Positions 17,449 through 47,231 of a stretch of 64,000 nucleotides of DNA are shown here, piece after piece. The notes under the pieces are model-generated. The model was not told the DNA's origin. It saw only the letters and a program-made list of their open reading frames with translations, and did not search any database. How positions within the stretch are numbered: position 1 is the first letter of the stretch; each line of letters starts with the position of its first letter. This DNA comes from Algibacter pacificus (GTDB lineage: Bacteria; Bacteroidota; Bacteroidia; Flavobacteriales; Flavobacteriaceae). Both the position numbers and the translations under genes were made by a program. The stretch covers positions 186,001 through 250,000 of the forward strand of contig NZ_VOGY01000005.1 in NCBI RefSeq assembly GCF_008033385.1, read 5' to 3'.

Positions 17449-17468
17449 CTTTAAAAAAGCGAAAGAAA

Positions 17469-18937: not shown

Positions 18938-18942
18938 GTAGT

Positions 18943-20523: not shown

Positions 20524-20570
20524 AACAATTCGCGCCTTGCCAATTATATATTATTCATATGATAATTTTA

Positions 20571-20615: not shown

Positions 20616-20636
20616 ACTGAATTAAAAAAATCCCAA

Positions 20637-21797: not shown

Positions 21798-21804
21798 AAC
21801 TAAT

Positions 21805-23538: not shown

Positions 23539-23541
23539 ATT

Positions 23542-26181: not shown

Positions 26182-26185
26182 AAAA

Positions 26186-27556: not shown

Positions 27557-27576
27557 AAAAATCAGTAAGTATCCTT

Positions 27577-27942: not shown

Positions 27943-27949
27943 AATATTA

Positions 27950-30310: not shown

Positions 30311-30324
30311 ATTTTTAATCTGAC

Positions 30325-31167: not shown

Positions 31168-31169
31168 TT

Positions 31170-31751: not shown

Positions 31752-31755
31752 AATA

Positions 31756-34158
31756 TTACGTTTTAGATGTGAATTGAATTATTGCTTTTTGCATGTCATG
31801 ATGTTCTTCATAGAACTTCATTATGTCTTCGTTTTCCTGTCCATCGGTTAAATAGGCTGCATAAACTTCTTTCGGAACTTCAAGGCGAAAAATGTTGCTT
31901 TCCTTACCTATTTTGATAAACATTTCGGTATACTTCCGAGGACCAGAAAGATTGTTTTTTATGGATTTTAATTGGTTCAGGTCGTGGCTAGATAGATTGA
32001 GTCTTTTGACTAATTCTTCATAGCCTTTTTCATTATTGAGACTGTAAATGACTTGGGTATTCTCTAGAATGCTGGCAGATGTTGAATTATTCGGAAGCTG
32101 ATTAATGGATTGTAGAATAATGCCAATTGCACCATTTTGTTTTCGTATGGCTTGGTAATAGAATTCGACACTTTCCAGTACGTTTTCAAACTTCAGTTGT
32201 TTGGCAAACTCATCGAAAAGGATAATGCCCTTTTCAGCACGGTTTTTCCAAATGGTTCTTTGAATGGCAGACTTAATGAGCTTCAACATTACGGATAAAA
32301 TTTCCTTATTGTCTTTTACCTCGTCTAGTTCAAAAACAATCAATCGTTTGTCCTCAATTTTATAGGTCTGATCTTCGCTGACTTCAAATAGAAAACTATA
32401 TAGACCATCGCCAACATACTCAGACATGACGTGTAAAAAACTCGTAACATTGAAGTAGTCGGGATGGATTTTAAGGGTAGTCAGAAGATCTTTCTGATGC
32501 CTTTCTATAAAGTTGTAGTAACCTTCCAAAGAATGATTTTCAGAAGTGCTATTGTAATAATGGCGCAGTATCTTTTTAACGGAAACCGATTGCGCTTTTG
32601 TTACTTTTAAATCTGAAGCAAATAATTCAAAAAGAAATACTGATAAATCCTCTAACCGTTCAGGTGTCAAATCTTTTACGTCACTAATGTAAAAAGGATT
32701 GATACCTAGGTTCTTTCCGCTTTCATATCGTAATACGGTATATTTTTCAGGATAGAGTTTGGCGAATTTGGTATAAGAACCACCTAAATCTATGATGACC
32801 AATCTTACACCACTTTCAAAATATTGGCGCAAAATATTGTTGGCTAAAAACGATTTGCCTTCGCCAGTTGGCGCAAATATGGCAAAGTTTCGTGCTTTAA
32901 TGCGTTTCTTTTTTTCATCCCAAACATCTTTTAATACCGGAATGTTATGTTCCCTGTCATTAAAGATGATTCCCGTTTTATCGGATTTGTAATTGGTGTT
33001 ATTGATAAACAGACAGAGCGCATGTTTTAAGTCGGTTACATACAAATCGTTATTTGAAAAATTAGAAGAAAAACAGCAGTAACTGTTAAGAATATAATTT
33101 TTGCGTTCTTCGCCACGCGGATAGTAAGGAATAATATCCAATTCCTTAAATTCCGTTTTAATTTTAGAAGTTATTTTGTCTAGTTCTTTAGCATCTTTCG
33201 ACCAATACACAATATTAAGATGACCGCGAATGATTCGTGAATTGTCATCTGCATTGATTTGGTCCAGAATGTGCTGAATTTTCCCAAGTACGACTTTGTT
33301 CTGTGAACCAAAATTGGAACTTTTGTTAAGCTCCTCTATTTTCTTATCGAGTAGCTTGCGCCACTTTTGTTTGTCGTCCAAATAAAGAATCTGGTTAACA
33401 ATATGGTTTTCATTAAGTGTAAGTCCTAAGCCATCAATAAACCCTTGATGAAACACAAAATCGTCTGATGTAAATTTCTCATTGGTTTTGCTACTTTGTA
33501 CGTTTTCGCCAAAGCATAATTCGCTGTTGATGGCAAGCGCATCAAAATGGTTTTCGCCAACATTGACGCTTTTCTTTTCTAGTAAAATATCGGTGTCAAA
33601 TCCTTCATTGAAACCATTGAAATAACTACTAGTTAATTGCTGAATATCTTCTGCGTTTAACGGAAGAAATTCTATTTTTCTACTATTATTTATAAAGGAA
33701 ACAGAATCGCTTACAGAGTTAGCAAAGCTCTTAATGTTATCATCTAATTCTTGTACAATTCCCTTTGAAATTTTCCTGAAGGGATTGACGTATTTCGGAT
33801 TGTTGAGTGCTTTGTTCTTAGTTAAAATGAAGAACAAATAACATTTATGTTCTATGTGTCCACGACCTTTAAAATGCTCGTGTGTGGCTTTTTCTAAAAA
33901 GGTGGTGTTTGGAAGTTGTTCTGAAGAATAAGATTTCTTAAGGTAAATGTCTTGTTTGTGAACTACAGTTCCAATAGGTAATGATTTTAAAGCTTGAAAC
34001 CATGCACTATGCATATCCTCAAAATCCTTTTCGGATAAGGAATAAATTTCTGGCAGATTACCTTCATAGCATAAAATCACATTGCCATTGTTGGCAAATA
34101 TGATATGGTCTTGAATATCTACAATGGGTTGATATGCTGAAATATTAATCTTGTTCAT
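31756..34158 (-). CDS. traG: Conjugation ATPase TraG (VirB4-like)
   Basis: 800 residues, of normal length for the family. The N-terminal half binds the membrane complex; the C-terminal ATPase has Walker A FAPTGEGKSFLANNIL (about 426-441), the block LVIIDLGGSYTKFAKLYPEK, and Walker B GIILFDEFAKQLKF. VirB4-type ATPases drive pilus or channel assembly and substrate transfer. It overlaps traF by 14 bases. Confidence 0.92.
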   Translation of the reverse strand: MNKINISAYQPIVDIQDHIIFANNGNVILCYEGNLPEIYSLSEKDFEDMHSAWFQALKSLPIGTVVHKQDIYLKKSYSSEQLPNTTFLEKATHEHFKGRGHIEHKCYLFFILTKNKALNNPKYVNPFRKISKGIVQELDDNIKSFANSVSDSVSFINNSRKIEFLPLNAEDIQQLTSSYFNGFNEGFDTDILLEKKSVNVGENHFDALAINSELCFGENVQSSKTNEKFTSDDFVFHQGFIDGLGLTLNENHIVNQILYLDDKQKWRKLLDKKIEELNKSSNFGSQNKVVLGKIQHILDQINADDNSRIIRGHLNIVYWSKDAKELDKITSKIKTEFKELDIIPYYPRGEERKNYILNSYCCFSSNFSNNDLYVTDLKHALCLFINNTNYKSDKTGIIFNDREHNIPVLKDVWDEKKKRIKARNFAIFAPTGEGKSFLANNILRQYFESGVRLVIIDLGGSYTKFAKLYPEKYTVLRYESGKNLGINPFYISDVKDLTPERLEDLSVFLFELFASDLKVTKAQSVSVKKILRHYYNSTSENHSLEGYYNFIERHQKDLLTTLKIHPDYFNVTSFLHVMSEYVGDGLYSFLFEVSEDQTYKIEDKRLIVFELDEVKDNKEILSVMLKLIKSAIQRTIWKNRAEKGIILFDEFAKQLKFENVLESVEFYYQAIRKQNGAIGIILQSINQLPNNSTSASILENTQVIYSLNNEKGYEELVKRLNLSSHDLNQLKSIKNNLSGPRKYTEMFIKIGKESNIFRLEVPKEVYAAYLTDGQENEDIMKFYEEHHDMQKAIIQFTSKT

Positions 34159-34429
34159 AATCGAAACCTGAATTTCTTTTGTTACTAATGATTTGCGGAA
34201 AAGCTTTTGCCATCTGAAAAAGTTGTGGATCGTTGGTTATGCGTGTCAAGGCAACATATAAAGCTGCATTGAAAATCAGAATGCTAATTATCATCACAAA
34301 GCTGAAAGAGAAAATGATGATTAATAATGACGCAAGAATAGAAACCATCATTAAGGCAAACAGGGAAATAGGCAATCCAAAAATGACTGCCCGTTTCCTA
34401 ATGTTTTTATATACTTCGTATTTCTTCAT
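34145..34429 (-). CDS. traF: Conjugative transfer protein TraF (DUF4133, VirB3-like)
   Basis: 94 residues with two adjacent hydrophobic segments (about 14-60) and a conserved-looking end (ITNDPQLFQMAKAFPQI). This matches DUF4133, the small VirB3-like membrane protein that precedes the VirB4 ATPase in Bacteroidetes elements. Confidence 0.83.
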   Translation of the reverse strand: MKKYEVYKNIRKRAVIFGLPISLFALMMVSILASLLIIIFSFSFVMIISILIFNAALYVALTRITNDPQLFQMAKAFPQIISNKRNSGFDYEQD

Positions 34430-34463
34430 ACAGCTGCTCTAATAAAGCCCTCGATGAGGGTCA

Positions 34464-34751
34464 TTATACTACGATAGTTATTAAGTAAGTGAAGATGCCT
34501 ACCACAGCACCAGCAATTAGAACAAATACTAAAACACGAGTAATACCTTTTTTAAGGTCTGCGTTCTCGCCAAAGAAATGACCAGCATTAAATAGGAATC
34601 CAACAAGAAAGATGACACCTAGAATGATTGGGAAAATGGTTCTAATGGTATCTGAAACATCGTTTACAGAATCTTCAATACCACCAATTTGTGCAAAGCT
34701 TGACGCTGATGTCATCAAGAATACAAGTAAGATAAAAATTGATTTTTTCAT
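34464..34751 (-). CDS. traE: Conjugative transfer protein TraE (DUF4134, VirB2-like)
   Basis: 95 residues: signal peptide (cleavage likely after SSFA at about 20) and two hydrophobic helices around a short polar loop (HFFGENADLKKGI). This is the pilin-like layout of DUF4134. It is the first gene of the minus-strand mating-pore operon, so the operon promoter must lie between 34752 and about 34926; no clear TAnnTTTG box was seen on that strand. Confidence 0.83.
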   Translation of the reverse strand: MKKSIFILLVFLMTSASSFAQIGGIEDSVNDVSDTIRTIFPIILGVIFLVGFLFNAGHFFGENADLKKGITRVLVFVLIAGAVVGIFTYLITIVV

Positions 34752-34926
34752 AATTATTTGGTTTAGCCTGTAGAGGCAGTTTCTAATTTTATTTTGTGAA
34801 ATCTATTATGAAATGAAGGTGAAGGAAGAAAATCTCTAAATTTTAACGCTAATTGGTGTTAAACTTTTGAAGATTATTAAGGAAGTGATTGATTTCTTGA
34901 ATATTGTGTAATCTAAAACGATTGTT

Positions 34927-35580
34927 ATGAGCACATTAAATCAAATTATAGTCTTACTATTCTGCCTAGTTTTTCTAAATCTATCTTATGCGCAGAATGG
35001 TAAAGACAAAGCAATAAATCCTATTGTAGTAATAGACCCTGGACATGGTGGAAAAGATGCGGGCGCAACAACCAGAAATGGCATTAAGGAAAAAGATATT
35101 GCTTTGAGTATCGCTTCTAAAATAGTGTTGCTTAATGATAAGCTGTTTGAAAATCTTTTGGAATTATTTCTCACTAGATATACGGACACATTAATATCGC
35201 TAGGCGATAGAACACAACTAGCCAAAAAACTAAAAGCTGATATATTTATTTCCATACATTGCAATCAAGCTATAAACAGAACAGCATCGGGAACAGAAGT
35301 TTTTATTCATCCTAAAAGCGAAGTGCAAGCTGAAGAATCTGCCTATTTAGGGTTTACTATTCAAAAAGGATTAACTGATATACTTGGTATTAATAACAGA
35401 GGTGTCAAATATGGCAATTTTCAGGTGTTGCGAGGTAACGACAATAGTAATGCAACGGTTCTTTTAGAACTTGGGTTCTTATCTCAAACGGATGAGGCTA
35501 TTTACTTAACTAAAGAAAAATCTCAGTATGCTATTGCTTTGGTCATACTTCAATCGATTATTAAATTTTTAGGATTATGA
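34927..35580 (+). CDS. N-acetylmuramoyl-L-alanine amidase (Amidase_3)
   Basis: 217 residues with a signal peptide ending SYAQ. The zinc amidase motifs are complete: VVIDPGHGGKDAG (first His about 39), the metal Glu in GIKEKDIALS, SIHCNQA (His about 110), and the catalytic Glu in LLELGFLSQ. It cuts the amide link between MurNAc and the peptide stem in peptidoglycan. It diverges from the mating-pore operon and probably opens the cell wall locally for channel assembly, taking the place of the lytic transglycosylases used by other conjugation systems. Confidence 0.9.
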   Translation: MSTLNQIIVLLFCLVFLNLSYAQNGKDKAINPIVVIDPGHGGKDAGATTRNGIKEKDIALSIASKIVLLNDKLFENLLELFLTRYTDTLISLGDRTQLAKKLKADIFISIHCNQAINRTASGTEVFIHPKSEVQAEESAYLGFTIQKGLTDILGINNRGVKYGNFQVLRGNDNSNATVLLELGFLSQTDEAIYLTKEKSQYAIALVILQSIIKFLGL

Positions 35581-35801
35581 GTGAATTTTTTATGGAAATT
35601 ACGGTGGTAATTAAAAGGGTTTTAATAGTGATATTGAAATCAATTAAAAGAAGATTATCGAACTAAGAATATAACTCACGTATTTATTTGAAATTAAAAT
35701 TGAACAAAATGTACTACTAAAAATTTGAGTAAAAGTAATATTATAGATTACGGAAAACCTCACTTAATAATATAAATAATTTCTTATTTTAGACAAAAAA
35801 T

Positions 35802-35840
35802 TATACTTGAATGTATTTAAGTTTTATTTTAAACTTAAAT
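35802..35840 (+). promoter_or_regulatory. Promoter-like box and hairpin before the Lamassu-like operon
   Basis: The 310-bp gap 35581-35890 is very AT-rich. It holds TATACTTG (35802-35809), one mismatch from TAnnTTTG, followed by a perfect 10-bp inverted repeat ATTTAAGTTT/AAACTTAAAT (35815-35840). The hairpin would sit in the 5' leader and may hold back expression. A 17-codon out-of-frame reading frame starts at 35845 and overlaps the next gene's start; nothing else is seen. Confidence 0.35.
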
Positions 35841-35890
35841 AAGTATGAGAATATCTGAAATTATAAAGCCAATAGGCTGTGTTGCAATAT

Positions 35891-37075
35891 ATGGCTGAAA
35901 ATAAAAGTGCTACTGAAAATCCAAAATTACATGAAGTAGTTCCAAGAGAGGTTGTGGGGAGAGATATTATTGCTAGATACCAGGGGCAATTTAGAGGGGC
36001 AGCTTATGAATGCTTAACTTTATTGGAAGGAGGCGAACTAGATAGAGTTTATTGTGATTATCAAGATGATTTTGTAACTCGACTAAATGTTGATGGACAA
36101 CAGATTTATAATTTTTATCAGGTAAAAACGAAAAATAAGCTTAATCACCAATGGGGCATTAATGAAATTTTTGGTTTATACAAAAAGAAGAAGCAAGCAT
36201 CAATTGATAAAATAGAACATAGCTTTGCTGGTAAATTATTGATACATACGGTTAAGTTTAATAATTCTTGTGGAAAGGTTATTTTTCTCACTAATATACA
36301 TTTTGATGACGATGTAGAATCATGCATGAAAGCGTGTTTAGACAATGATCAAGACAACAAACACTATGCATCATTGCTCGAAACTTTTAATACCGCTTTC
36401 TCAAAAGATGCCCCTCTTGATGAAATAGAGGTTTTAAAAGCAATAAAGAAACTTCAGCTTGAACCTAATAAATCATACTTGCTACCTTCAGATGAAAATT
36501 TTTATGCGATAGCAAGAGACACTATTTTTAAGTATAGTGAAATTGATTTAAAAAAAATAGAAAGTGAGGAGATTATTAATAACCTAGTTTCATTAGTTGA
36601 AAGAAAATCGTTCACTAAACTCGTATTAAATTGTGACGAGTCTGATCTTGATGAAATTGCAGGCATTTGTCTAGAAGATATGTTAGATATTCTTAGTATA
36701 TCTAGAGGAGCGTATAATCTTTTAAATGATGGAGGTGATGTTCAAGCTATTAAAAATGCTTCAATAATTCAAAGATTATTAAGTCAGGGTGGTGCCAGTA
36801 ACCAAATGATTGAATATGCTTCTAAATGCAAAGTAAATTGGGATATTTGGTATAGAGAAAAACGACATAATATTCCAGAGTTTGATTTAAATTTTATTAT
36901 GGATCGTGTAGCGTTAATTGCAAATCAGTGGGCAAATAAGAATCAATCACTTGAGGAATTAAGAAAAGAAATAGCAAACCTAAGTAACGATCTCAAGGAT
37001 GTTTCAAAAACTTTGACTAATGAACTTTTGCTCGGTGGAGTTTTTTCTGTAATCGTAAGAAATGAGTCACAATGA
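35891..37075 (+). CDS. DUF4297/Cap4-type dsDNA nuclease, Lamassu LmuA-like effector
   Basis: 394 residues from ATG 35891; the longer frame from GTG 35879 adds only four residues. The N-terminal nuclease domain shows the DUF4297 pattern: REVVGRDIIARYQGQFRGAA, the Glu of YECLTLL, YCDYQDDFVTR and FYQVKTKNK. Together these form the E, D, QVK core of a PD-(D/E)xK nuclease that cuts double-stranded DNA. The C-terminal 250 residues are helical and probably contact the partner proteins. The stop overlaps the next start (ATGA). Nuclease, small protein and SMC-like ATPase in this order match the Lamassu type with Cap4 effector, as in DdmABC. Confidence 0.82.
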   Translation: MAENKSATENPKLHEVVPREVVGRDIIARYQGQFRGAAYECLTLLEGGELDRVYCDYQDDFVTRLNVDGQQIYNFYQVKTKNKLNHQWGINEIFGLYKKKKQASIDKIEHSFAGKLLIHTVKFNNSCGKVIFLTNIHFDDDVESCMKACLDNDQDNKHYASLLETFNTAFSKDAPLDEIEVLKAIKKLQLEPNKSYLLPSDENFYAIARDTIFKYSEIDLKKIESEEIINNLVSLVERKSFTKLVLNCDESDLDEIAGICLEDMLDILSISRGAYNLLNDGGDVQAIKNASIIQRLLSQGGASNQMIEYASKCKVNWDIWYREKRHNIPEFDLNFIMDRVALIANQWANKNQSLEELRKEIANLSNDLKDVSKTLTNELLLGGVFSVIVRNESQ

Positions 37076-37551
37076 ATTATAAAGAATTTTTTAATGAGGC
37101 AGAGGAAAGAGATGTAACATTAACACTTGATAATCCGAAAACATCTATTTCTCATAGACTAAGTAATGAAGCGCTTTTTCATTTACCGTTGATAGCGATG
37201 ACTATTTTATTACTTTCAAAATCAAGAAGCAAACCCAAAAGTGATGAGATAGGGCAATTAATAGGAGAATGTTTTGAGAGAGCTTTCAAAGGATTTAAAG
37301 GTTCTTCTCAATATTTGGGATGGTCCGCAAATTTAAGAATGAGAACAGTTAAGGCCTTGACTTTTCTTGAAACAGCTAATTTAATTGAAGTTGATATTCA
37401 AGATTCTAGGATAAAGGTTACGGACATGGGAAAAAAGGTTATTTCTAAGGCAATAGATGATGATACTGACTTAGGATATAATTTACGAGTAATTGAACAA
37501 AAATACAGAGATATTAGAGCAGAAAAACAAATAGCGATAGGCATAGTATGA
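37072..37551 (+). CDS. Lamassu LmuC/DdmB-like middle component (ABC-3C)
   Basis: 159 residues. The central block NEALFHLPLIAMTILLLSKS and the winged-helix-like end (RTVKALTFLETANLIEVDIQ) resemble middle components of ABC three-component systems. It overlaps its neighbours by 4 bases at both ends, so all three proteins are made in a fixed ratio. By analogy it bridges the nuclease effector and the SMC-like ATPase. Confidence 0.7.
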   Translation: MNYKEFFNEAEERDVTLTLDNPKTSISHRLSNEALFHLPLIAMTILLLSKSRSKPKSDEIGQLIGECFERAFKGFKGSSQYLGWSANLRMRTVKALTFLETANLIEVDIQDSRIKVTDMGKKVISKAIDDDTDLGYNLRVIEQKYRDIRAEKQIAIGIV

Positions 37552-39347
37552 AATTATTAGAATTAAAAATAGAGCATGTTGAGTTAGACGGTTGGGAATC
37601 GGAGCAGCTAACGTTTGGGGACGACATTACACAGCTTTATGGGCCTAATGGATGTGGAAAGACACCTGTAATCCATTCAATAGCCTACGCAATGGGTTAT
37701 CCTGTAAAGTTTCGTGAGGATATTCTAAGAAATTGCAAATCTGTAGTATTAAAGGCTTCACATGAGGAAAATATCATAGTTTTCAAACGAGAATTGTCTT
37801 CGAGTTTTAATGTTGAATGTAATGTTTATGATGAAATTATAGGAGATGATTCTGAAAATAATAAAGTTTTTTATAGTGAGAAAGATTTATCCGTATATCT
37901 TTTCGATTTATTAGGGTTGTCAACCGCTGCCCTTACATCCTTAAAAAACCTTCCAACGTTCCCCTATGTTTCAACATTACTTCCTTTATTTTATGTAGAT
38001 CAAGATTCTGGCTACACTAGCGCATACAAAGCGCAATCTAACTTTATTAAAGACCAATATGCTGAAATGGTGCGCATGTCTATTGGAGTAATTGCAAAAA
38101 ACTCTTACGAAAAAAAGAAGGATTTAATAGAAAATAAAAAGGAACTAGGCTTAATTGATTCAGAAATTGTAAGTACAGAAAATTTTATTGAAACTTTAAT
38201 TCTTCAAAGAAAAGGTTCGTTGCTGTCCAAAATAGATGTAGAAGATCGTCTTCAAAAATTGAAAGATAGATTAGATGAGCTTAATTCTAATCAAGATACA
38301 TCTTATAGCACTAACTCAGCAATTCAAACTTTGATAAATGAGAAGTTGTCTGAAAAAAACAGTACAGATTCTAAAATTAGAGATTTAAGGGAAAGAATCA
38401 ATGGTTTTGGCAAAATCAAAGATGAAATTGAAATTGAAATAAATACACTTTCCTTGAACGAAGAGGCTAAACGTGTATTTAGTTCATTTGATGAAATATG
38501 TAGTAATAGAGGTTGCCAACTTTTTTTGAGCAGTTCTGAATCTTATGGTAAAAACCTGTTGTACCTGAAAGATCAAACTAAAGATTTAGACCGAAACCTG
38601 GGTTATCAAAAGGAACGTCTCGATGAGTTTTGCATAAACTTTGATAATATTGAAGGTGAAATAAAAAAACTAAAAATTAATTTATCTGAAGAGCAATCTG
38701 GAGGTACTGCTCAAAATTTAGTTAATACTATTAGTGAACTTACAAGATCAATTATTGATTTACAGAGAGAAAAGGAAATAGTAGGAAGGCTTGAGCTAGA
38801 AGAAAAAAAGTATAATAGATTTATAAGTAAAAGAGAGCAATTGCATAATACTATTGCCTCTTTAGATGATAGAAATTCTACCGTTGACTTAAAACAATTA
38901 AAGTTTAGAACGGATTTTAAAAAACAAATAACGGAATGGTTAGATGTTTTAAGTACCAAAAATGTATCGAGAAACATTAATATTGATTCAGACTTTAATA
39001 TCTTATTTGGAACAGAAAAATTATCCCAATTAAGTGGAAGCACGTTGCTACGAGTTATTTTAGCTATTAAAGCGGCGTTTTTTGATATCTATATCTCATC
39101 TGAATTGTCTGCCTTTGAATTTTTAATATTTGACACCCCAAAACAACACGATATAGAAACAGAGCATTTTGCAGCTTTTATAGATAAGCTTAAAACAACC
39201 GTATCCAATAAAAGAGCTCAAATAATTTTCTCAACGACGGAATACCATTATGAACCAAAAGAAAATGATGTTGAGTGGATTCCTAGCTTTCCGGGAACAG
39301 AACAGAACATGTTTTTAGGTATAATTCCTAAAATTAAAGTAAAATAA
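37548..39347 (+). CDS. SMC/Rad50-like ATPase, Lamassu LmuB/DdmC-like sensor
   Basis: 599 residues. The N terminus has an ABC-type Walker A, LYGPNGCGKTPVIHS (about 30-44), with Pro in place of the usual Ser/Thr after GKT. A coiled-coil middle (about 185-460) contains a Cys pair, CSNRGC, near 315. The C terminus has LSGSTLLRVILAIKAAFF, signature-like, and Walker B FLIFDTPKQHD (about 522-532). Such compact SMC-like proteins recognise foreign or replicating DNA and release the nuclease. It is the last gene of the operon. Confidence 0.78.
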   Translation: MKLLELKIEHVELDGWESEQLTFGDDITQLYGPNGCGKTPVIHSIAYAMGYPVKFREDILRNCKSVVLKASHEENIIVFKRELSSSFNVECNVYDEIIGDDSENNKVFYSEKDLSVYLFDLLGLSTAALTSLKNLPTFPYVSTLLPLFYVDQDSGYTSAYKAQSNFIKDQYAEMVRMSIGVIAKNSYEKKKDLIENKKELGLIDSEIVSTENFIETLILQRKGSLLSKIDVEDRLQKLKDRLDELNSNQDTSYSTNSAIQTLINEKLSEKNSTDSKIRDLRERINGFGKIKDEIEIEINTLSLNEEAKRVFSSFDEICSNRGCQLFLSSSESYGKNLLYLKDQTKDLDRNLGYQKERLDEFCINFDNIEGEIKKLKINLSEEQSGGTAQNLVNTISELTRSIIDLQREKEIVGRLELEEKKYNRFISKREQLHNTIASLDDRNSTVDLKQLKFRTDFKKQITEWLDVLSTKNVSRNINIDSDFNILFGTEKLSQLSGSTLLRVILAIKAAFFDIYISSELSAFEFLIFDTPKQHDIETEHFAAFIDKLKTTVSNKRAQIIFSTTEYHYEPKENDVEWIPSFPGTEQNMFLGIIPKIKVK

Positions 39348-39487
39348 ATATCATGCAAAAATTGTGGAAGGATCATTTTATGTAACATAAAAGACAAAGT
39401 GATGATGTGCGATTCTTGTGGTATGCCAAATGTGATTTCTGATTGAAATTGATTAATCAGATATTGCATTCTGTGTAATTATTGAGG

Positions 39488-39506
39488 AAGAATTAATTCT
39501 TTTTAT
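39488..39506 (+). terminator. Weak palindrome, possible terminator
   Basis: AAGAATTAATTCTT (39488-39501) is a perfect 14-bp palindrome followed by TTTTA, about 140 bp after the SMC-like gene. The rest of the 291-bp gap (39348-39638) shows nothing recognisable. Confidence 0.25.
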
Positions 39507-39638
39507 TTCATAAGCTTTATCAAAAGAAGTCAAATTAAAACAACTTATTCATACGCTTCCGAACGCTATTCCTTTACCTACCGGTATTGAGGTTTTTGGC
39601 TGTATAAATTGATAGTTTATAAAGAGAAATTCATCCCA

Positions 39639-40757
39639 TTACTTCTCAATCTTCCCCCAAACCAAAGGATGCTCACTAGCAGCAACATTTCTATTAGTAA
39701 CAGATTTGTAAATAGACCATTGTGGCTGTTTTTCTGGCCACATTGCTTTACGGTTTAATCCACTATCCTTCATTTTATTGAATAGAGCAGGAGAGAAGAG
39801 CATATAATCTTTCTGCTTAATATTTACACCCATTCTGTAAGCGCCTAATCTATAATAAGTAGAGTCATTTCCTTTGTCTATATCCACTTCAAACGATAGG
39901 TGTTTTGTGATGTCTTTTAGGTCTGTATTTTGAATTAAAGGCGATAAAGAATTACAATAAGATGGTGCGTTAAATGTACCTGCTATGATGACATTGACTT
40001 TACCTTCAGCTATCAGTTTGTTATAAACTTCAGCAATTTTGCAAACTTGTTTTTTTCTAATGTTATCCGATTGTGTTCTGTCTTTTGTTGGCTTTTTTAA
40101 ATATGCATTTAATAGCCAAATAATTTCTTTTGATGGTGTGCTAATTTCATATTCAATTAAATTTTTACCATCATCGTTAGAAATAGAATTTATGTTGTGA
40201 GTTCTAACAGCTTCTAGATTGTAGCCTTGTCGTAATGCTATTCCCATTTCTAAACTATGCATATCGTTACCTTGAATCACAAAAGAGTGGTTAAAAGGTT
40301 TGCAGTCAAATTCTGGTAGAATGAGTTGGTTAAAGTCCTCAAACGATGCTCTGTCCTCAATTTCTTGTAGCAGTAAAATATCTGGATTTACGTTGGCGAT
40401 AACTTGTGCTTTATGTTGTGTTGATTTGGGATGAATAGGAACGGTTTGAAGTTTTATCCATCCATTCCAATCTGTGATATTACCAGCTTTGTTATCAATA
40501 GAATGGCTTAAACCTTTCATAAACAGAAAACCTGCTTTTCGTCTCAAAACAGCATAAGGACGAGGACTTGATTTTTCAAAACCAATTAAAAATGATAATT
40601 CTCTAATTCGATCTTGTTGGCTTAATGATTTAGAAGGTTCAAGCATGAGTGTATCAAGCTCTATTGTCCAATCGGGAATTAAGTTTTCAATTGGTTTTTC
40701 TAGAAGACTTCTGTCTCTATGGAATAAGTTCTGGACATTAAAAGTTGCTATTTTCAT
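39639..40757 (-). CDS. Endonuclease/exonuclease/phosphatase-fold protein with altered active site
   Basis: 372 residues. EEP-fold landmarks are the start MKIATFNVQNLF, the metal Glu in LLLQEIEDR, and the end ASEHPLVWGKI, which corresponds to the SDHxP motif with Glu for Asp. The usual catalytic GDFND is GTFNA (VIIAGTFNAPSYC), so the Asp that helps the nucleophile is lost. Either this subfamily uses other residues or the protein binds rather than cuts. The block YYRLGAYRMGVNIKQKDYML is strongly patterned. It lies 14 bp after a DnaC-like gene, pointing to a role in element DNA processing. Confidence 0.75.
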   Translation of the reverse strand: MKIATFNVQNLFHRDRSLLEKPIENLIPDWTIELDTLMLEPSKSLSQQDRIRELSFLIGFEKSSPRPYAVLRRKAGFLFMKGLSHSIDNKAGNITDWNGWIKLQTVPIHPKSTQHKAQVIANVNPDILLLQEIEDRASFEDFNQLILPEFDCKPFNHSFVIQGNDMHSLEMGIALRQGYNLEAVRTHNINSISNDDGKNLIEYEISTPSKEIIWLLNAYLKKPTKDRTQSDNIRKKQVCKIAEVYNKLIAEGKVNVIIAGTFNAPSYCNSLSPLIQNTDLKDITKHLSFEVDIDKGNDSTYYRLGAYRMGVNIKQKDYMLFSPALFNKMKDSGLNRKAMWPEKQPQWSIYKSVTNRNVAASEHPLVWGKIEK

Positions 40758-40771
40758 AATTTCTTAGTTTT

Positions 40772-41428
40772 TTATTTTCTTTTATCGCAAGAGTCTTCAT
40801 CGAATGCTACCAGATTAAATAATTCTCGCATTCTGCTTCGTACTCTATTGCCATATAAATCTTCCAATTCTTCAGCATTTAGGTTTGTAGTTCCGTGTGT
40901 TTTTATATGATGGTTTATAAAAAGTTCATGACGTGAGAGTAAGATTTCGCCCATGACGTTACAGTCCTTTCCGTAGTGTCTTCCAATAGGTTCAACGCCT
41001 AAATCATCAAAACAGAAAAACTGCCTACAACCATAATCTTCAATGGTTTTATAACCAATGTGATTGAAACCAAATACAATGTTTCTGGAAGGAATCAGGA
41101 TGTATGGTTTTTGCAACGGAACGATGTTTTTAAGCAAAATCATTAAGCTTGTTTTGCCACACCCTACAGGTCCGGAAAGTAAAATGCCTTTATCTGGATC
41201 TATCTCGTTTTTCTCGCAGTTTGCTTTGTCTTTTATGAAATAATGACAGAGTTTTAAAATGATTGGATGGTCTTCTTCGTAGATTTTAAAACCGTTACCA
41301 AAGAGCATTTTTCCTTTGACATCGAGGTAAATTAAGATTTTTTCAAAATCGTACGTCACTTCTTTGCCATCAAACGTGCCAATGTCATACGTTTTGTGTT
41401 CTTCGACTATTTTACAAGGGTTGACCAT
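40772..41428 (-). CDS. DnaC/IstB-like AAA ATPase (helicase loader type)
   Basis: 218 residues. Walker A is GILLSGPVGCGKTSLMILL (about 81-99) and Walker B FFCFDDLGVEP; the arginine-finger region is NRVRSRMRELFNLVAF. This is the pattern of DnaC-like loaders found in conjugative elements and phages. Its start overlaps the preceding gene by 17 bases. It may load a host helicase for element replication after transfer. Confidence 0.82.
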   Translation of the reverse strand: MVNPCKIVEEHKTYDIGTFDGKEVTYDFEKILIYLDVKGKMLFGNGFKIYEEDHPIILKLCHYFIKDKANCEKNEIDPDKGILLSGPVGCGKTSLMILLKNIVPLQKPYILIPSRNIVFGFNHIGYKTIEDYGCRQFFCFDDLGVEPIGRHYGKDCNVMGEILLSRHELFINHHIKTHGTTNLNAEELEDLYGNRVRSRMRELFNLVAFDEDSCDKRK

Positions 41429-42059
41429 AATCTTTGTTTTTATTGGTTCTCAGGTTGTCCTTTTTTTGAGGAACTGCATCTGCAGTTTCAAATTCTTTGG
41501 CTTTTAGCATCCAATTACTTGCGGTAGCATGCCAATCTTCAATTTTTATTTTACCACCAATTTTCCAACCGATGCCTTGGTAATGGTTGTAGAATTTCTT
41601 TGCTTCATTATCAGGCCATTTTTTCTTTTTAAAAAAATCAATGACTTCAAATTCATTTTTTGGTAGCTTAGTTTTATTTATGTTTTCTATTTGTTTATTA
41701 ATGTTTGTATTACGTATCAATGCTTGTTCAGTACTTGTTTCAAACTCATTCACAACTTGTTCAGAGGTTGTACCGAAATTGAACAACTTGATTTTACTGC
41801 CTTTATATGGATTATGTGAAGGGAAATATTTTAGATAATCCCATGAATCCATCTGTTTTAAACAACGATGATAAGTTGCTGTTGAACCAATTTTTGAGAG
41901 TTCCATAACTTCTTGTCTGTCTATGTAAAATTCTTCTCGAAATCGGTTTAAATTCCAAAACTGAAACAAAGCCATATATAAGCTTACATGCGTTGTATTT
42001 AACCTTTTGTCTGCATAGAATTTTTGAAATACAGCATTGAGATGTTTTATATAATTCAT
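41412..42059 (-). CDS. wHTH replication-type protein of unknown family
   Basis: 215 residues. The N-terminal half looks like a winged helix (RLNTTHVSLYMALFQFWNLN, FYIDRQEVMELSKIGSTATY), as in RepA/DnaD-like proteins. The C-terminal block WPDNEAKKFYNHYQGIGWKI and DWHATASNWMLKA resembles the end of DnaD-type primosome proteins. It overlaps the DnaC-like gene and follows an Xis-like HTH gene, so a replication initiator or primosome role is likely. Confidence 0.65.
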   Translation of the reverse strand: MNYIKHLNAVFQKFYADKRLNTTHVSLYMALFQFWNLNRFREEFYIDRQEVMELSKIGSTATYHRCLKQMDSWDYLKYFPSHNPYKGSKIKLFNFGTTSEQVVNEFETSTEQALIRNTNINKQIENINKTKLPKNEFEVIDFFKKKKWPDNEAKKFYNHYQGIGWKIGGKIKIEDWHATASNWMLKAKEFETADAVPQKKDNLRTNKNKDYGQPL

Positions 42060-42065
42060 ACATAT

Positions 42066-42347
42066 TTATTCCGTTTTATGATGTACTCGATTATTGTCCA
42101 TAACCTTCTGAATTTCTTCGGAATCATAAAAAATGATGCCACCAACCTTTGTGTAGGGTAGTGTACCTTTAATTCGAAGATTCTGTAGAGTACCAGGACT
42201 AATTTGAAGTAAGTCCATGAGTTCTGAAGATTTTAGATATTTCTTCAGCTTACCTTGCGCTTGTTTATTTAAAAGTTTTTTGATGTCATCAAGTAGTTCA
42301 AGTTTGAAATCCATTAGATCATCTGTAGTAATAATTGTTGCTGGCAT
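42066..42347 (-). CDS. HTH_17/excisionase-like DNA-binding protein
   Basis: 93 residues. After a helical N terminus comes a MerR/Xis-type helix-turn-helix, YLKSSELMDLLQISPGTLQN, followed by the wing LRIKGTLPYTKVGGIIFYDS. Proteins of this type act as excisionases or local regulators on Bacteroidetes elements. It lies 6 bp before the wHTH gene in the same operon. Confidence 0.8.
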   Translation of the reverse strand: MPATIITTDDLMDFKLELLDDIKKLLNKQAQGKLKKYLKSSELMDLLQISPGTLQNLRIKGTLPYTKVGGIIFYDSEEIQKVMDNNRVHHKTE

Positions 42348-42365
42348 AGTAGAACTGTTTTTAGA

Positions 42366-42402
42366 AAAGAACTACCATTTTGCTTTTAACTAAAATGATA
42401 GT
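42366..42402 (-). terminator. Probable terminator after rteC
   Basis: ACTACCATTTT (42371-42381) and AAAATGATAGT (42392-42402) pair at 10 of 11 positions. On the minus strand the hairpin is followed by TCTTTTCT. It lies between the rteC-like gene and the Xis-like operon. The rest of the gap 42348-42621 holds no recognised feature. Confidence 0.4.
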
Positions 42403-42621
42403 CCTTGACCTGATTTGACTTTCGTTCTACAAATTTGAATAGTATTGTTGGCATTTAATCAGTAGTTAAACCGTAGTAGGGTCAAAATTTAACATCTTGA
42501 TAAATGGTGTTATTTGATGTGCTTTGGTACGGAAATTATTTATTTTAATATGAAGTAATTCCTTTTTTGGAGTATAAATTTAAAAGCGTAAGGTAAACCG
42601 AGTACGATGTTTTTCGAAGCG

Positions 42622-43458
42622 TTATTCTTCTGAGTTCTCTATATGAGAAAGTAAGCTTGCGGAAAGGACATCCAAGAACTTGGTGCGACTAATTTTTCGG
42701 GATTTTATATCAGCAAAGGTTTTATAGTAGTCGCCCAGTTTAAAATGAAATATGCTTTCAAAGGTAGATGCAATTTCTTTAATGTCAGATTTTCCGTTAT
42801 TAATGACCCTACTATGGTATAAAGCATAGACCAATTCTGTGAGGGCTGTTTTTGAAGATGTCCATTCTAGCTCTGTAAGATTGTTCAATTCTAATTCATT
42901 CTTGTATATTGATTTCTTAGCATCCAATAATCGGTTTTGTAAATAATTGATAAAACGCTTTGATGCTTTTAATTTACCTAGGAGTAAATCATAAGGTGTA
43001 CAGAAGTCTGGGTCTTGAAAGTAAAATTTTGAAGATGTTATAGGAACATTATCAAAATAATCTCTAGTGAAGAATTGCTTGTCTAGATGTGTCTGTTTGG
43101 ATTCAATATATTGTACAAAGTCCATGTTGTATAAAAAGAACCGATTTAGTTTGCTCAATTTCTTTTTAACATATTTTCTTTGTTGGCTGCTGCCCACTTT
43201 AGGGAATTGAATTTCAAAAGAGCGGATTTCTGAATAATAAATGAGTTGACTAAATGGAATTTGCTTTATTTTTTTAAAAAATTCTATTTCTTCTTCAGTA
43301 GATTTAAAACCATCGATGACTACTAATTTTCTATATGTGTTAAGAAGGTTTCGACATGCAATTATGGATTTATTTGAACGCTCAATAATTCCATTGGAAC
43401 TATATTTTATCTCATCCAAATCGAAAAGTAGATTCTTGTTTTTCTTTTTAAAATCCAT
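42622..43458 (-). CDS. RteC-domain regulator of excision/transfer
   Basis: 278 residues. The C-terminal segment LEWTSSKTALTELVYALYHS, NGKSDIKEIASTFESIFHFK, and LGDYYKTFADIKSRK is the RteC signature. In CTnDOT, RteC activates excision genes after a two-component cascade; no rteA or rteB is seen here. The N-terminal part has several aromatic and basic stretches without a known motif. It is flanked by noncoding gaps on both sides and so is probably transcribed alone. Confidence 0.85.
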   Translation of the reverse strand: MDFKKKNKNLLFDLDEIKYSSNGIIERSNKSIIACRNLLNTYRKLVVIDGFKSTEEEIEFFKKIKQIPFSQLIYYSEIRSFEIQFPKVGSSQQRKYVKKKLSKLNRFFLYNMDFVQYIESKQTHLDKQFFTRDYFDNVPITSSKFYFQDPDFCTPYDLLLGKLKASKRFINYLQNRLLDAKKSIYKNELELNNLTELEWTSSKTALTELVYALYHSRVINNGKSDIKEIASTFESIFHFKLGDYYKTFADIKSRKISRTKFLDVLSASLLSHIENSEE

Positions 43459-43675
43459 TCTTTCATTTTAATAAAGAAATAGTTGTTTCTAAGAAGAATG
43501 TAAAATTTAAAAGGATGATATGAAAGAAGTAAATGAGGGAAACTAGTAATAATCGATCATATTAATGCTTCTATTAATTTAGATTTTTTAAGGTTTACTA
43601 TTTCAATTTAATTCTAAGTTGTTTAAAATAATAATAGAATCAAAATTATACCTGTGTATTTTTTGCGTATTTCGT

Positions 43676-43695
43676 ATGTGAATTTTTGTTCACAT
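43676..43695. repeat. Short inverted repeat
   Basis: ATGTGAA-N6-TTCACAT is a perfect inverted repeat in the 255-bp gap between the rteC-like and LuxR-type genes, 18 bp past the end of the latter. No T-run accompanies it on the minus strand, so it is more like a protein-binding site than a terminator. Confidence 0.35.
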
Positions 43696-43713
43696 GTATT
43701 TTAGTGTTTATGT

Positions 43714-44631
43714 TTAACCTTTAAACTTTTTTACAAAGTCCTCTTTGTTGGAAACATTAGATTTTATAAAAATATTAGAAGCATGTTTCCTTACTGTTCC
43801 ATAGGAAATAAACATATTCTTGGATATTTTTTTATAACTATCTCCTTTGATAATTTGGATGGCAATTTCATTTTCTCTATTTGTGAAACTATATTCTTTT
43901 CCAATATTACGTTTTAATATGTAAGTGTTTTTTAACCTGTATGAATAGCTGTTAATTTCCATAATGGTAACTAAAAAGAATGCCATAGTTACTAGAGGCT
44001 GGGTAATCGGTTGAAAATCTCCAAAATATGTTAATAAAGGCAAAAGAATTACAGATAATATAGAAGTAAGACCTAAGTAAGTTTGAATTTTGAAGTAACG
44101 TTGTCTTTTAACTTCTTTTCTTATGGTCATAAAGAAATATATCAAAAATGTTATGGACATAAATATAGGTAATACCAAAAACAGACTTCTAGAAAAACTA
44201 AGCGAGTTTGTATAATAATATGGTATAATGAATAAAAACAGAAAGCACAGAGTTAGTATTATTGTTAGATTTTTGATTTTGAAAAAAGGGTTTGGTGTGA
44301 TAATATTAAACTCAATATATAAATACCAAATAAGGTAAATACACATAATAATGGAAATACTGTATGTTGTTATGTATTGCAAGAACAAAGGACCAGGTAG
44401 AGATGTATTAGGTAATAAGCCATTAAGTATATTATATAATAGAAAAAGAATAGCTAAAATCAAATATCTGTAAGAAGCTTTGATTGTTTTTTGTTTGCTA
44501 AATATTATTTTTAAAAGTTGAAGAACAATGATTATACTGATTACAATACATATAAATAATACTATCCAATGCATTGAAGATGAATAAACGTATTCAGGTG
44601 TGAAATGATATTTTTGCTCTTTGGGTAGCAT
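43714..44631 (-). CDS. Seven-transmembrane sensor with LuxR-type HTH
   Basis: 305 residues. Seven hydrophobic segments fill about 20-230. A LuxR/GerE helix-turn-helix closes the protein: SFTNRENEIAIQIIKGDSYK, then KISKNMFISYGTVRKHASNI. This is a membrane-bound one-component regulator, with sensing in the membrane or outside and DNA binding at the C terminus. It diverges from the D-cysteine desulfhydrase-like gene across 88 bp, so it probably controls that gene. The ligand is unknown. Confidence 0.82.
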   Translation of the reverse strand: MLPKEQKYHFTPEYVYSSSMHWIVLFICIVISIIIVLQLLKIIFSKQKTIKASYRYLILAILFLLYNILNGLLPNTSLPGPLFLQYITTYSISIIMCIYLIWYLYIEFNIITPNPFFKIKNLTIILTLCFLFLFIIPYYYTNSLSFSRSLFLVLPIFMSITFLIYFFMTIRKEVKRQRYFKIQTYLGLTSILSVILLPLLTYFGDFQPITQPLVTMAFFLVTIMEINSYSYRLKNTYILKRNIGKEYSFTNRENEIAIQIIKGDSYKKISKNMFISYGTVRKHASNIFIKSNVSNKEDFVKKFKG

Positions 44632-44719
44632 ATAAGTATTTGAATAACAAAATATTATATTTAATTTTCATTACTGTTAAAGATACTATATATTAGTGTT
44701 AATCAAAAATTAGCTTATA

Positions 44720-45700
44720 ATGTTATATAAAAAATACAGTTTAGGTGTTTTTCCAACACCACTTGAGCGATTAGATAATCTATCTAAAAAATATCCTGAT
44801 TTTGATTTATTTATTAAACGAGATGATAATTCTGGACTAGCATCAGGAGGAAACAAGGTTAGGAAGTTACAATACTTTATTTATGATGCTTTAGAAAAAG
44901 GATGTGATACCATAATTACTGCAGGAGCTCAACAGTCTAATCATTGCCGACAAACAGCAGCGGCTTGCGCTAAAGCTGGATTAAAATGCCATTTGTTGTT
45001 AGGAGGTATAGAACCTCAGAATTACAATGGTAATTTGTTGCTTTCCCATCTTTTAGGAGCTAAAATTTACTTTACTGGAGATAATAGAAAGGGGGAGGAT
45101 ATAATCAAATTAAAGCAAGATTTAGAAGCACAGAAAAGAAAAGTATATGAAATTCCTTATGGTGGCTCGAACTTACTAGGGGCTTACGGTTTTGTCGATG
45201 CAGTTAAAGAATTAAAGAAGCAACTTTCAGAAAAGAAATTAAAAATCGATTATATTTTCTTTGCTTCAAGCTCAGGAGGAACACAAGCAGGACTTAGACT
45301 TGGAGTGGATTTATTTGGTATTGATATTAAGTTAATGCCAATCAGTATTGATAAAATTGGTTTAGGAGATAAAGCATTAGACGATGCTGTTTTAGAGATA
45401 CTACATCAAGGTCAAAAAGAATTGAGTATTCAAAAAACGTACTCAATTAAAGAGGCAACACTTATTAGAGGTTACGACAAACCTGGTTATGGAGTAATTA
45501 CTCAAAATGAAAAGATGGCCATAAAACAATTGGCTCAAAGTGAAGGTATATTGTTAGATCCTGTTTATTCTGGTAGAGCTTTTTACGGAATGATAGATCA
45601 TCTGAAAAGTAATAAGGTAGAAAAAAACTCCAATGTGCTCTTTTGGCATACAGGTGGCTTACCGGCAAATTTTTATTATTCCGAAGAGCTTTTAAAATAA
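44720..45700 (+). CDS. D-cysteine desulfhydrase / ACC deaminase family PLP enzyme
   Basis: 326 residues of the tryptophan-synthase-beta PLP fold. FIKRDDNSGLASGGNKVRKL holds the PLP Lys (Lys46). ITAGAQQSNHCRQTAAACAK is the substrate-binding block, and the end has FWHTGGLPANF. Members either deaminate 1-aminocyclopropane-1-carboxylate or release sulfide, ammonia and pyruvate from D-cysteine; sequence alone does not separate them, and outside plant-associated bacteria the latter is more common. It is cargo beside the integrase, with a divergent 7TM-LuxR gene. Its stop is 1 bp from the convergent integrase stop. Confidence 0.88.
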   Translation: MLYKKYSLGVFPTPLERLDNLSKKYPDFDLFIKRDDNSGLASGGNKVRKLQYFIYDALEKGCDTIITAGAQQSNHCRQTAAACAKAGLKCHLLLGGIEPQNYNGNLLLSHLLGAKIYFTGDNRKGEDIIKLKQDLEAQKRKVYEIPYGGSNLLGAYGFVDAVKELKKQLSEKKLKIDYIFFASSSGGTQAGLRLGVDLFGIDIKLMPISIDKIGLGDKALDDAVLEILHQGQKELSIQKTYSIKEATLIRGYDKPGYGVITQNEKMAIKQLAQSEGILLDPVYSGRAFYGMIDHLKSNKVEKNSNVLFWHTGGLPANFYYSEELLK

Positions 45701-45701
45701 C

Positions 45702-46916
45702 TTAAAAGTTAATTACTTCTTCTAAAGCGTCATCTGCTTCTTGATGGATAAAGTTAGTTTGATAATTTAAGGTCGTTTTTAAATCACTATGTCTATATAA
45801 TTTTTGAAGTATTCTAGGATGAATTTTGTCTCCAGCGATATTCCCAAAACTGTGTCGAGCAATATGCATGGTAACCTTCTTTTTAATTCCAGCTTTTATA
45901 GTAATCGATTTAAGACAGTCATTTAATTTTTTGTTAGCAGTTTTTAGTTTATTAAAAACATCTTTAGGGTTATTCAAATCAGCTTTTTTTAGTTCAGGAA
46001 AAATGAAATCATCATCACTTTTTTTATCCATTTTGTAACTTTCTAAGACAACTGATATTTTATCTGGAATTTTTAATGATAACAATTTAGAATTTTTACC
46101 CATTCTGTAGTGAAATCTTTGGTCATAAATATCAGACCAACGAGTTCTTAAAATATCTGAGACTCTCATGCCTGCAAAATTAAAACTAAAAAGCCATATG
46201 TTCCGTGCATGGATTTCTCTAAAAGTCAAATTCTCTAACGATTGTAGCTTTTTTATCTCTGAAATAGTAAGCCCAATTTTTGTTGTCTCTGGAAATTTGA
46301 TTCGTATTTTATCTGAGCCAAAAGGATAGAGTTCTTTACTAATAATTTTTTGTTTTATTGCTCGATTATATAGTAAACGCAAAAGAACAAGTATATTCAT
46401 AATCGATGTGTCAGATAAAGAATGTATTGACTTTAAAGTAATCATTAGCTTCTTCAAGAAACGTTCATCAATTTCCTGAAAAGTAAGTTGTTTTGATTTA
46501 TGGAATTTTAATATGAAGCCGACCCAAGCTTTATCACATGATAAACGATTTAGTTTATTCGATAATTTTAAATCATCTAAATGTTCATTTGCAAGTTCAA
46601 AAAATGTAGAGTTTTTACCTAAATTGTATAATTCGTTCTTAATTTGATTTGCTGAAGCATCTTTATTTTTTACTTGTAAAGCAATTAAAGATTTGTTTAC
46701 TTCTGAAATTTCTTGAGATAATAAACTATTTAAACTGACAGAATTTGGATGAGATTTTTTTACACGTATATTCTTTTTATCCCAATCTTCAATATCTATG
46801 TAATGACCTATATATTGATAAGTTGAGCGACGATTTTTGGTAATTCGAATAGCAAGAGGATATAGACCTTTCCTATTCGGTTTTTTACGAAGTACTATTT
46901 TTGCGTTTGATGACAT
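45702..46916 (-). CDS. int: Tyrosine-type integrase of the ICE
   Basis: 404 residues. The N-terminal arm-binding domain (VLRKKPNRKGLYPLAIRITK) and SAM-like core-binding domain (about 103-205) are of the Bacteroidetes phage-integrase type. The catalytic set is complete: Arg251 in FAGMRVSD, Lys274 or Lys277 in RMGKNSK, His351 and Arg354 in HIARHSF, His376 in YRHSDLKTT, and the nucleophile Tyr385 in LNYQ. It stands about 200 bp from a truncated tRNA-Leu, so it very likely integrates the element there. Confidence 0.93.
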   Translation of the reverse strand: MSSNAKIVLRKKPNRKGLYPLAIRITKNRRSTYQYIGHYIDIEDWDKKNIRVKKSHPNSVSLNSLLSQEISEVNKSLIALQVKNKDASANQIKNELYNLGKNSTFFELANEHLDDLKLSNKLNRLSCDKAWVGFILKFHKSKQLTFQEIDERFLKKLMITLKSIHSLSDTSIMNILVLLRLLYNRAIKQKIISKELYPFGSDKIRIKFPETTKIGLTISEIKKLQSLENLTFREIHARNIWLFSFNFAGMRVSDILRTRWSDIYDQRFHYRMGKNSKLLSLKIPDKISVVLESYKMDKKSDDDFIFPELKKADLNNPKDVFNKLKTANKKLNDCLKSITIKAGIKKKVTMHIARHSFGNIAGDKIHPRILQKLYRHSDLKTTLNYQTNFIHQEADDALEEVINF

Positions 46917-46947
46917 AATTGACCTGTTTTAGCACGAAAGTCAAATC

Positions 46948-47058
46948 AGGTACAACATTTGGTTTTAAAACCTATGCAAAGATACACTTTTATTAGTTTC
47001 TCTAGGTACAACATAGGTACAACAAATACTGAAATTAATTGATATTAGATGATATCAA
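46948..47058. repeat. Integrase arm-type site candidates
   Basis: AGGTACAACA occurs three times in one direction, at 46948-46957, 47004-47013 and 47015-47024, the last two one base apart. A perfect inverted repeat TTGATAT-N6-ATATCAA follows at 47039-47058. All lie between the int start and the tRNA-Leu remnant, where arm-type integrase and accessory-factor sites are expected. Confidence 0.6.
46977..46984 (-). promoter_or_regulatory. Candidate -7 box of the integrase promoter
   Basis: Read on the minus strand this is TATCTTTG, a full match to TAnnTTTG, about 60 bp before the int start codon. The AGGTACAACA repeats flank it on both sides, so integrase binding may repress its own gene. Confidence 0.5.
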
Positions 47059-47122
47059 ATAAAATTACAAACACCCTAAGTAATTGTAAATGAATGACTT
47101 TGTTCTTATTTGGTCAAATATA

Positions 47123-47179
47123 CGCTAGACTTAGGATCTAGTGCCGCGAGGTGTGGGAGTTCGAGTCTCCCCGCCCGCA
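47123..47179 (+). tRNA. 3' part of tRNA-Leu(UAG), truncated; ICE attachment site
   Basis: The sequence reads as the anticodon arm (CTAGA-CTTAGGA-TCTAG, 47125-47141, anticodon TAG at 47132-47134), the long variable arm, the T arm (GGGAG-TTCGAGT-CTCCC, 47155-47171), the 3' acceptor strand CGCCCGC (47172-47178) and discriminator A (47179). The D arm and 5' acceptor strand are missing; the bases before 47123 do not resemble tRNA. The fragment is therefore the displaced 3' end of the target tRNA, with the functional copy expected at the other end of the element. CCA is not encoded. Confidence 0.88.
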
Positions 47180-47190
47180 CAACCTAAAGG

Positions 47191-47231
47191 AAAAGCCTTA
47201 ATACTATTTGTATTGAGGCTTTTTTATTTTT
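47191..47231 (+). terminator. Terminator of the former tRNA-Leu gene
   Basis: AAAAGCCTTAATAC (47191-47204) pairs with GTATTGAGGCTTTT (47210-47223) with one mismatch and is followed by a T-rich tail. It originally ended the tRNA-Leu transcript and may also serve tamL from the other side. Confidence 0.8.

Follow-up and report, generated by a model that had tools for sequence, protein, structure and literature searches.

The 64,000-nt window (the whole stretch of DNA analysed, G000:C5:186001-250000, from a 4.17-Mb draft genome) contains the right end of an integrative conjugative element (ICE) whose host tRNA-Leu(UAG) gene lies in two pieces, one at each end of the element, and whose left end carries a complete tRNA-Leu(UAG) of its own. 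This arrangement is very probably explained as a whole by an ICE that crosses over in the anticodon loop, splits the host tRNA gene and brings a complete replacement read from the host promoter. According to the proposed mechanism, the tyrosine integrase would target tRNA-Leu(UAG) and recombine inside its 7-nt anticodon loop. Because attL and attR share only 15 bp, integration leaves the host tRNA gene as two dead halves, which would then sit at the two ends of the element, and the element-carried tRNA-Leu(UAG) with its terminator-like hairpin, 34 nt inside attL, would make integration survivable. The host tRNA promoter, upstream of the dead 5' half, would read through this half and the spacer into the replacement, and RNase P would trim the leader of the resulting transcript.

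The two ends of the element

The first-pass annotation had proposed an ICE right end in the window, and this was borne out: the region has a split tRNA-Leu(UAG) next to arm-type repeats and the gene of a tyrosine integrase, and a second end exists. The features of the window were as follows:

1..47129, no strand: portion of the ICE within the window, the remainder lying to the left (G000:C5 from about 171638)
18943..20523, + strand: T4SS coupling protein (T4SS-DNA_transf/TraG-D_C)
27950..28780, - strand: DUF4138 protein, TraN-like
28777..29709, - strand: conjugative transposon TraM
31756..34158, - strand: conjugation ATPase (P-loop_TraG)
42622..43458, - strand: RteC
45702..46916, - strand: tyrosine integrase, 404 aa (Pfam Arm-DNA-bind_5, Phage_int_SAM_5, Phage_integrase)
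46948..46957, + strand: repeat AGGTACAACA, putative arm-type site
47004..47013, + strand: repeat AGGTACAACA, putative arm-type site
47015..47024, + strand: repeat AGGTACAACA, putative arm-type site, 11 nt from the copy at 47004
47039..47058, no strand: palindrome TTGATATTAGATGATATCAA, 20 nt, possible accessory site
47122..47136, + strand: attR core ACGCTAGACTTAGGA, 15 bp, common to attL (L015:3630-3644)
47130..47136, + strand: anticodon loop CTTAGGA, taken as the overlap region
47130..47179, + strand: original 3' half of the host tRNA-Leu(UAG); its partner, the 5' half at attL, pairs with it in the acceptor (7/7) and the anticodon stem (5/5)
47189..47225, + strand: terminator-like hairpin of the host tRNA gene, orphaned

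The integrase, with its arm-binding domain, had matches in 74 of 299 family genomes (E<=1e-40). Together with the conjugation machinery (coupling protein, TraG ATPase and TraM) and the direct-repeat attL and attR with an empty site in relatives, it identified the element, by its sequence, as a Bacteroidota ICE. The DUF4138 protein at 27950..28780 resembles TraN, and RteC, encoded at 42622..43458, is a regulator of Bacteroides conjugative transposons. The conjugation genes, and a scan of viral contigs that returned no relative, ruled out a phage origin.

Three repeats had been claimed between the integrase gene and the tRNA fragment, and these were found at 46948, 47004 and 47015, with a fourth copy of AGGTACAACA at 38557 on the - strand. 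The four copies in the window compared with 0.04 expected (100 shuffles), which ruled out a chance origin, and the repeats were present in relatives too. The palindrome was likewise found between the integrase gene and the fragment, but its perfect form occurred in 7 of 25 loci, the window's own included, which leaves a role as a general accessory site unsupported. The palindrome stretch (47035-47074) also had a 40-nt match of 83% at G000:C1:298953-298992. The fragment at 47122-47179 is, as the first reading had it, the 3' part of a tRNA-Leu(UAG) without the D arm or the 5' strand of the acceptor stem, and it has kept its original terminator, now orphaned, as the hairpin at 47189-47225. ARAGORN detected no tRNA gene over the whole window.

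The left end was located 14.4 kb outside the window, where a search of the same genome found a second tRNA-Leu(UAG) region about 61.4 kb upstream on the same contig, and the element measured 61,492 bp from loop to loop. The second tRNA copy and the matching direct repeat that had been expected there were both present, the repeat being 15 bp long, but the tRNA was not restored from the 3' half: the host gene remains in two pieces and the element brings a complete second gene, so that no carried fragment restores the split target and canonical restoration at this end was ruled out. In left-to-right order, the left end comprised:

first, ahead of the host 5' half: promoter-like TATATTTG
L015:3606-3644: host tRNA-Leu 5' half, ending in the loop CTTAGGA
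between the host 5' half and the complete tRNA: AT-rich spacer, 34 nt
L015:3679-3761: complete element-borne tRNA-Leu(UAG) (ARAGORN, tRNA-Leu(TAG))
L015:3786-3813: terminator-like hairpin after the replacement tRNA
from L015:3821: AGGTACAACATAGGTACAACAT, two further arm-type repeats, the same 11-nt pair as at the right end

The host halves from the two ends paired with each other in the acceptor stem (GCGGGCG/CGCCCGC, 7/7) and the anticodon stem (CTAGA/TCTAG, 5/5), and the element tRNA was fully paired by itself (GCGGGAG/CTCCCGC and CCAGA/TCTGG). When the flanks were joined, the resulting 84 nt were identical to the intact tRNA of one genome of the same genus (84/84) and matched those of three others at 81/84. 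All four of these genomes, the only others of the genus in the set analysed, had an empty site, with an intact tRNA and the same left neighbour, and their 3-kb empty-site loci held no arm repeats. A search of the carrier genome for the UAG anticodon region (at most 3 mismatches) returned two matches only, the fragment and the replacement. Apart from the element-borne tRNA, the assembly thus yielded no complete UAG tRNA; the other leucine tRNAs at the loci checked, a non-exhaustive list, were CAA, TAA and GAG. The replacement is presumably essential, and in carrier hosts a probably essential translation gene would then belong to a mobile element.

The crossover had been placed in or just after the anticodon stem. 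A position within the 7-nt loop CTTAGGA, between the stem arms, is more likely. At 9 of 25 loci, the left arm of attR was CCAGA opposite the host TCTAG, a mismatched stem. Most likely the element supplied the left arm and the host the right one, which places the exchange in the loop. The attP-derived arm of attR was CTAGA or CCAGA in all 24 genomes with the tandem arrangement described below, and in none of them did it match the stem of the tRNA that the element carries.

Recurrence among related elements

Adjoining tRNA halves were looked for at the family's top 30 integrase loci (63-100% identical). A UAG 3' half matching the search pattern lay beside the integrase at 25 of them, and the other five had an altered UAG half (L043) or Leu(CAA) halves (L044-L047). 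The tandem check covered only the 25 genomes with a UAG half beside a related integrase. A split half and a complete tRNA, 73-76 nt apart, were found in 24 of the 25, and in all 24 the host halves at both ends paired 7/7 and 5/5, G-T pairs allowed. The one exception, G030, had an intact tRNA followed directly by the element hairpin and arms, without a split half. This locus (L058, G030:C7:109756), with its intact tRNA-Leu(UAG), hairpin and arm pair, may be a canonical-looking exception or a draft-assembly artefact.

When GTDB species genomes were scanned for the tandem, at least 119 stretches came back, of which at least 80 could be read as loci; most of these carry titles naming Flavobacteriaceae or genera of that family. 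This set probably overlaps in part with the 25 chosen genomes, and its loci are related elements, not independent trials. Among the matches listed, the loops of the split half and the complete tRNA were identical in 79 of 80 loci (61 UAG, 17 CAA and 1 UAA), and arm repeats followed downstream in at least 73 of the 80 (57 Leu(UAG), 15 Leu(CAA) and 1 Leu(UAA), the last, L163, being weak with a single arm match). Seven loci had no arm repeat in the first 300 nt (L173, L188, L190, L202, L220, L233 and L237) and were left out of the position-by-position, pairing and promoter-box counts. Among the matches listed, the gap between the dead half and the replacement was 19-38 nt at the 72 loci where it was measured.

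More distant integrases, about 40-63% identical, were sampled at 40 of the next 44 rows (four skipped). At 31 of these 40 a tRNA half adjoined at the anticodon loop, and 9 had no tRNA half; a further set of integrase relatives had a tRNA 3' part at 12 of 12 loci, one of which (L311) repeats a locus of the 40-locus set and another of which (L313) looks like a complete tRNA. The targets among the distant integrases included Leu(UAG), Leu(CAA), Leu(UAA) and Met. In the 12 genomes of tRNA-Met relatives that were inspected, tRNA-Met was intact, and in 11 of them the preceding 140 nt held no split half; the same arm motif stood just after the tRNA-Met in 7 of the 12. These results indicate that anticodon-loop targeting is common in the integrase family and that whole-gene replacement, which was seen in its leucine branches, is not a property of the whole family. 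At one locus (L301, G284:C13:224573), an intact tRNA-Met followed by arm repeats had a decayed tRNA-Met-like copy just before it, and a class-level integrase relative (L319) had an adjoining tRNA 3' half with the loop CTGAAAA, perhaps of a tRNA-Ser.

The replacement tRNA and its anticodon stem

TAnnTTTG is the consensus of the Bacteroidota-type -7 box. Within 60 nt upstream of the split half it was present at 57 of 72 loci compared with 4.7 in shuffles, among the matches listed, which supports the host promoter. It was found in none of the 73 spacers among the matches listed, and this absence says little because shuffles gave only 1.35. Transcription most likely proceeds from the host promoter through the dead half, as the placing of the boxes suggests.

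With a crossover in the anticodon loop, a 3' half can rescue the gene only if it pairs with the two strands left by the host, the 5' strand of the acceptor and the stem arm. Among the matches listed, a chimera of the host 5' half and the element 3' half would leave the acceptor unpaired at 37 of 57 UAG, 15 of 15 CAA and 0 of 1 UAA loci, and would leave something unpaired at 50 of 57 UAG and 15 of 15 CAA loci. For the window's own element, the defect of the chimera would be slight, with 6/7 pairs in the acceptor and 5/5 in the stem, a G-T pair included. Judged by this pairing, the suggested worth of a whole tRNA over a 3' half would be twofold: rescue would be independent of the host acceptor-stem sequence, which a 3' half must match, and both strands of the anticodon stem could change together, so that the anticodon would be kept and the stem of the split gene abandoned.

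Such compensatory stem differences were observed. Among the matches listed, the anticodon stem of the complete tRNA differed from that of the split gene in 71 of 73 loci, the same stem occurring in both at L221 and L227 only, and the replacements were paired 5/5 in the anticodon stem in all 73 and fully paired in the acceptor in 72 of 73. Nucleotide 27 (in the usual tRNA numbering) was C in all 57 split UAG halves and T in 37 of the 57 replacements, and the D arm was nearly invariant in the UAG loci, again among the matches listed. Several paired stems recurred among these matches (TCAGA, CCAGA, CTTGA and TTAGA for UAG; ATGGA, CCGGA, AAGGA and TCGGA for CAA). TNAGA/TCTNA stems gave 34 matches in 33 of 397 family genomes. 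For 31 such tRNAs taken in (G220, G021 (covered in the tandem set) and G325 were left out), element signatures, meaning a split half or arm repeats, lay beside 28, of which 26 were tandem and 2 had arms only; the three with neither signature were G214 (at a contig end), G022 and G089.

Two readings of these differences were weighed. The first, with a chance only a little short of even, holds that the stem differs only through pick-up of the tRNA from another lineage and that its changes are neutral. Several observations fit such a pick-up: host and element diverge at acceptor positions 3, 5 and 6 as well (0.33, 0.23 and 0.40), CAA replacements differ at several other places, the same stem is inherited by related elements, and the TTAGA stems of G022 and G089 occur without any element signature. 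Against it stand the constancy of nucleotide 27 in the split UAG halves beside its frequent T in the replacements, the occurrence of TNAGA/TCTNA stems in 33 of 397 family genomes, with element signatures beside 28 of the 31 such tRNAs inspected, and the recurrence of several different paired stems for both UAG and CAA.

The second reading, which we put forward tentatively and as the less probable of the two, is that the rescue gene is target-edited, the loop, where a match is required, being kept and the stem recoded by compensatory pairs so that the element's own integrase recognises the replacement poorly, and the gene being on only via the captured host promoter. If true, the recoded stem would make it rarer for the rescue gene to be self-deleted or for further copies to stack; the stem changes may protect the replacement from the integrase. 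Among the matches listed, T27 halves numbered 0 of the 61 UAG halves adjoining a complete tRNA, which against 33 of 397 genomes gives 0.005, the trials not being independent. The TCAGA half of L221 falls outside this count because the scan records only the half adjoining the complete tRNA.

Strict immunity by stem recoding as a general rule was ruled out by L221 and by split CCAGA replacements. Element-borne tRNAs were themselves split at five loci (L221, L195, L227, L230 and G073). At L221 (Galbibacter sp. EGI 63066), two split halves, the first TCAGA and the second CTTGA, form a chain with a complete CTTGA tRNA near 6505, and the spacer and 5' half are exactly repeated, which suggests repeated insertion or a duplication made by the integrase. 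CCAGA replacements were split by later elements, giving stacked elements, at L195, L227, L230 and the left end of G073 (L064). The halves of L227 and L230 were judged to be element-borne from the spacer-like sequence before them, and these two loci showed apparent attP-like junctions. The window's own replacement is of the CCAGA type. Split and complete replacements numbered 3 and 15 for CCAGA and 2 and 45 for other stems among the matches listed, a difference that was not significant (p = 0.13). In G101 and G263 the host gene that was split itself had a CCAGA stem.

Two further explanations concern why a whole tRNA is present. Anticodon nucleases cut in the loop, and the anticodon loop of the replacement is left unchanged. 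It is very improbable that the replacement serves translation of the element or counters a tRNA-cleaving defence, with its position at attL incidental: passages of PMC10865867 do report a proposal that phage tRNAs counter anticodon nucleases, but at 79 of 80 loci the loop of the replacement is that of the split gene, and the tRNA keeps its short distance from the dead half in 72, both among the matches listed. Scarcely credible, finally, is an ordinary tRNA island in which the 3' part from attP restores a working chimera at attL and the extra 5' half is a chance duplication; restoration is the usual plan for tRNA islands in passages of PMC4383910, and the tRNA-Met relatives, perhaps G030 too, look like such islands, but in the 24 tandem genomes the host 5' half always paired perfectly with the attR 3' half and its stem was imperfect with the element's 3' half in 22, the joined flanks reproduced the empty site in full, and the plan was repeated with arm repeats in at least 73 loci.

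Relation to known systems, and cargo

NBU1 and the CTnDOT family are mobile elements of Bacteroidota, and NBU1 also targets a leucine tRNA; RteC and the Tra genes are common in kind to this Bacteroides family and to the element described here. NBU1 uses the 3' end of tRNA-Leu, according to a passage of PMC10865867, whereas the present element uses the anticodon loop.

The closest likeness in mechanism is to tRNA-dependent lysogeny, described for actinobacteriophages such as Fionnbharth, LeBron and Gaia, with a Lactobacillus prophage mentioned as a further candidate, in passages of PMC10865867. In the same passages, mutants established the principle of a short core, no restoration and a required phage tRNA, and the attP/attB core measures 8-17 bp in the non-restoring rows of Table 2. 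A tyrosine integrase, arm-type sites, a core in the anticodon region and an unrestored host tRNA are common to those phages, as these passages describe them (PMC10865867), and to the present element, in which a common core of 15 bp at attL and attR goes without restoration and the element tRNA is of the same isotype. The carriers differ, being temperate phages of Actinobacteria there (passages of PMC10865867) and a Bacteroidota element with conjugation genes instead here. The Fionnbharth tRNA overlaps another gene and has a demonstrated promoter of its own, as passages of PMC10865867 report; here, unlike Fionnbharth, the tRNA is fixed beside attL and no box was recognised in the spacer. Paired anticodon-stem changes, present here, are not discussed in the passages of PMC10865867 on tRNA-dependent lysogeny. 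By analogy, the element would work like tRNA-dependent lysogeny without being a lysogeny system.

Islander-type islands, in passages of PMC4383910, likewise have a tRNA target, a tyrosine integrase and a displaced fragment at one end, and an anticodon-centred crossover, as in our element, is a class counted among them. In those islands the fragment restores the target, whereas here the target is left broken and a whole gene is added (passages of PMC4383910). A disrupted tRNA-Thr(GGU) of Caldiarchaeum, in which a tRNA fragment and a full tRNA lie close together around a recombinase gene, is described in passages of PMC3293823, whose authors suggest that a tRNA change brought by an element may keep out later invaders. 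That system is archaeal and its change is an intron (PMC3293823, in the passages concerned), in contrast to the paired stem substitutions here.

In the literature searched, largely titles and the openings of abstracts with few subscription papers, we met no ICE with a replacement tRNA. With the present element, tRNA replacement as practised by actinobacteriophages would reach conjugative elements in a different phylum, and annotation that looks for a restored tRNA could put the ends of such elements in the wrong place. The many paired stem variants beside an unchanged loop amount to a natural experiment on which features of its tRNA target a tyrosine integrase reads.

The cargo (window 1694-10292 and L015:8955-18667) included two RND-type efflux sets as well as two P-type ATPases, and one of the ATPases bears heavy-metal domains. 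A methylase/ResIII pair at 21805-26181 resembles a type III restriction system. A KAP-family P-loop NTPase, a Schlafen AlbA_2 protein and a DUF4238 protein (window 10382-12250 and 26186-27556, and L015:7247-8350) are possible candidates for defence genes on the element.
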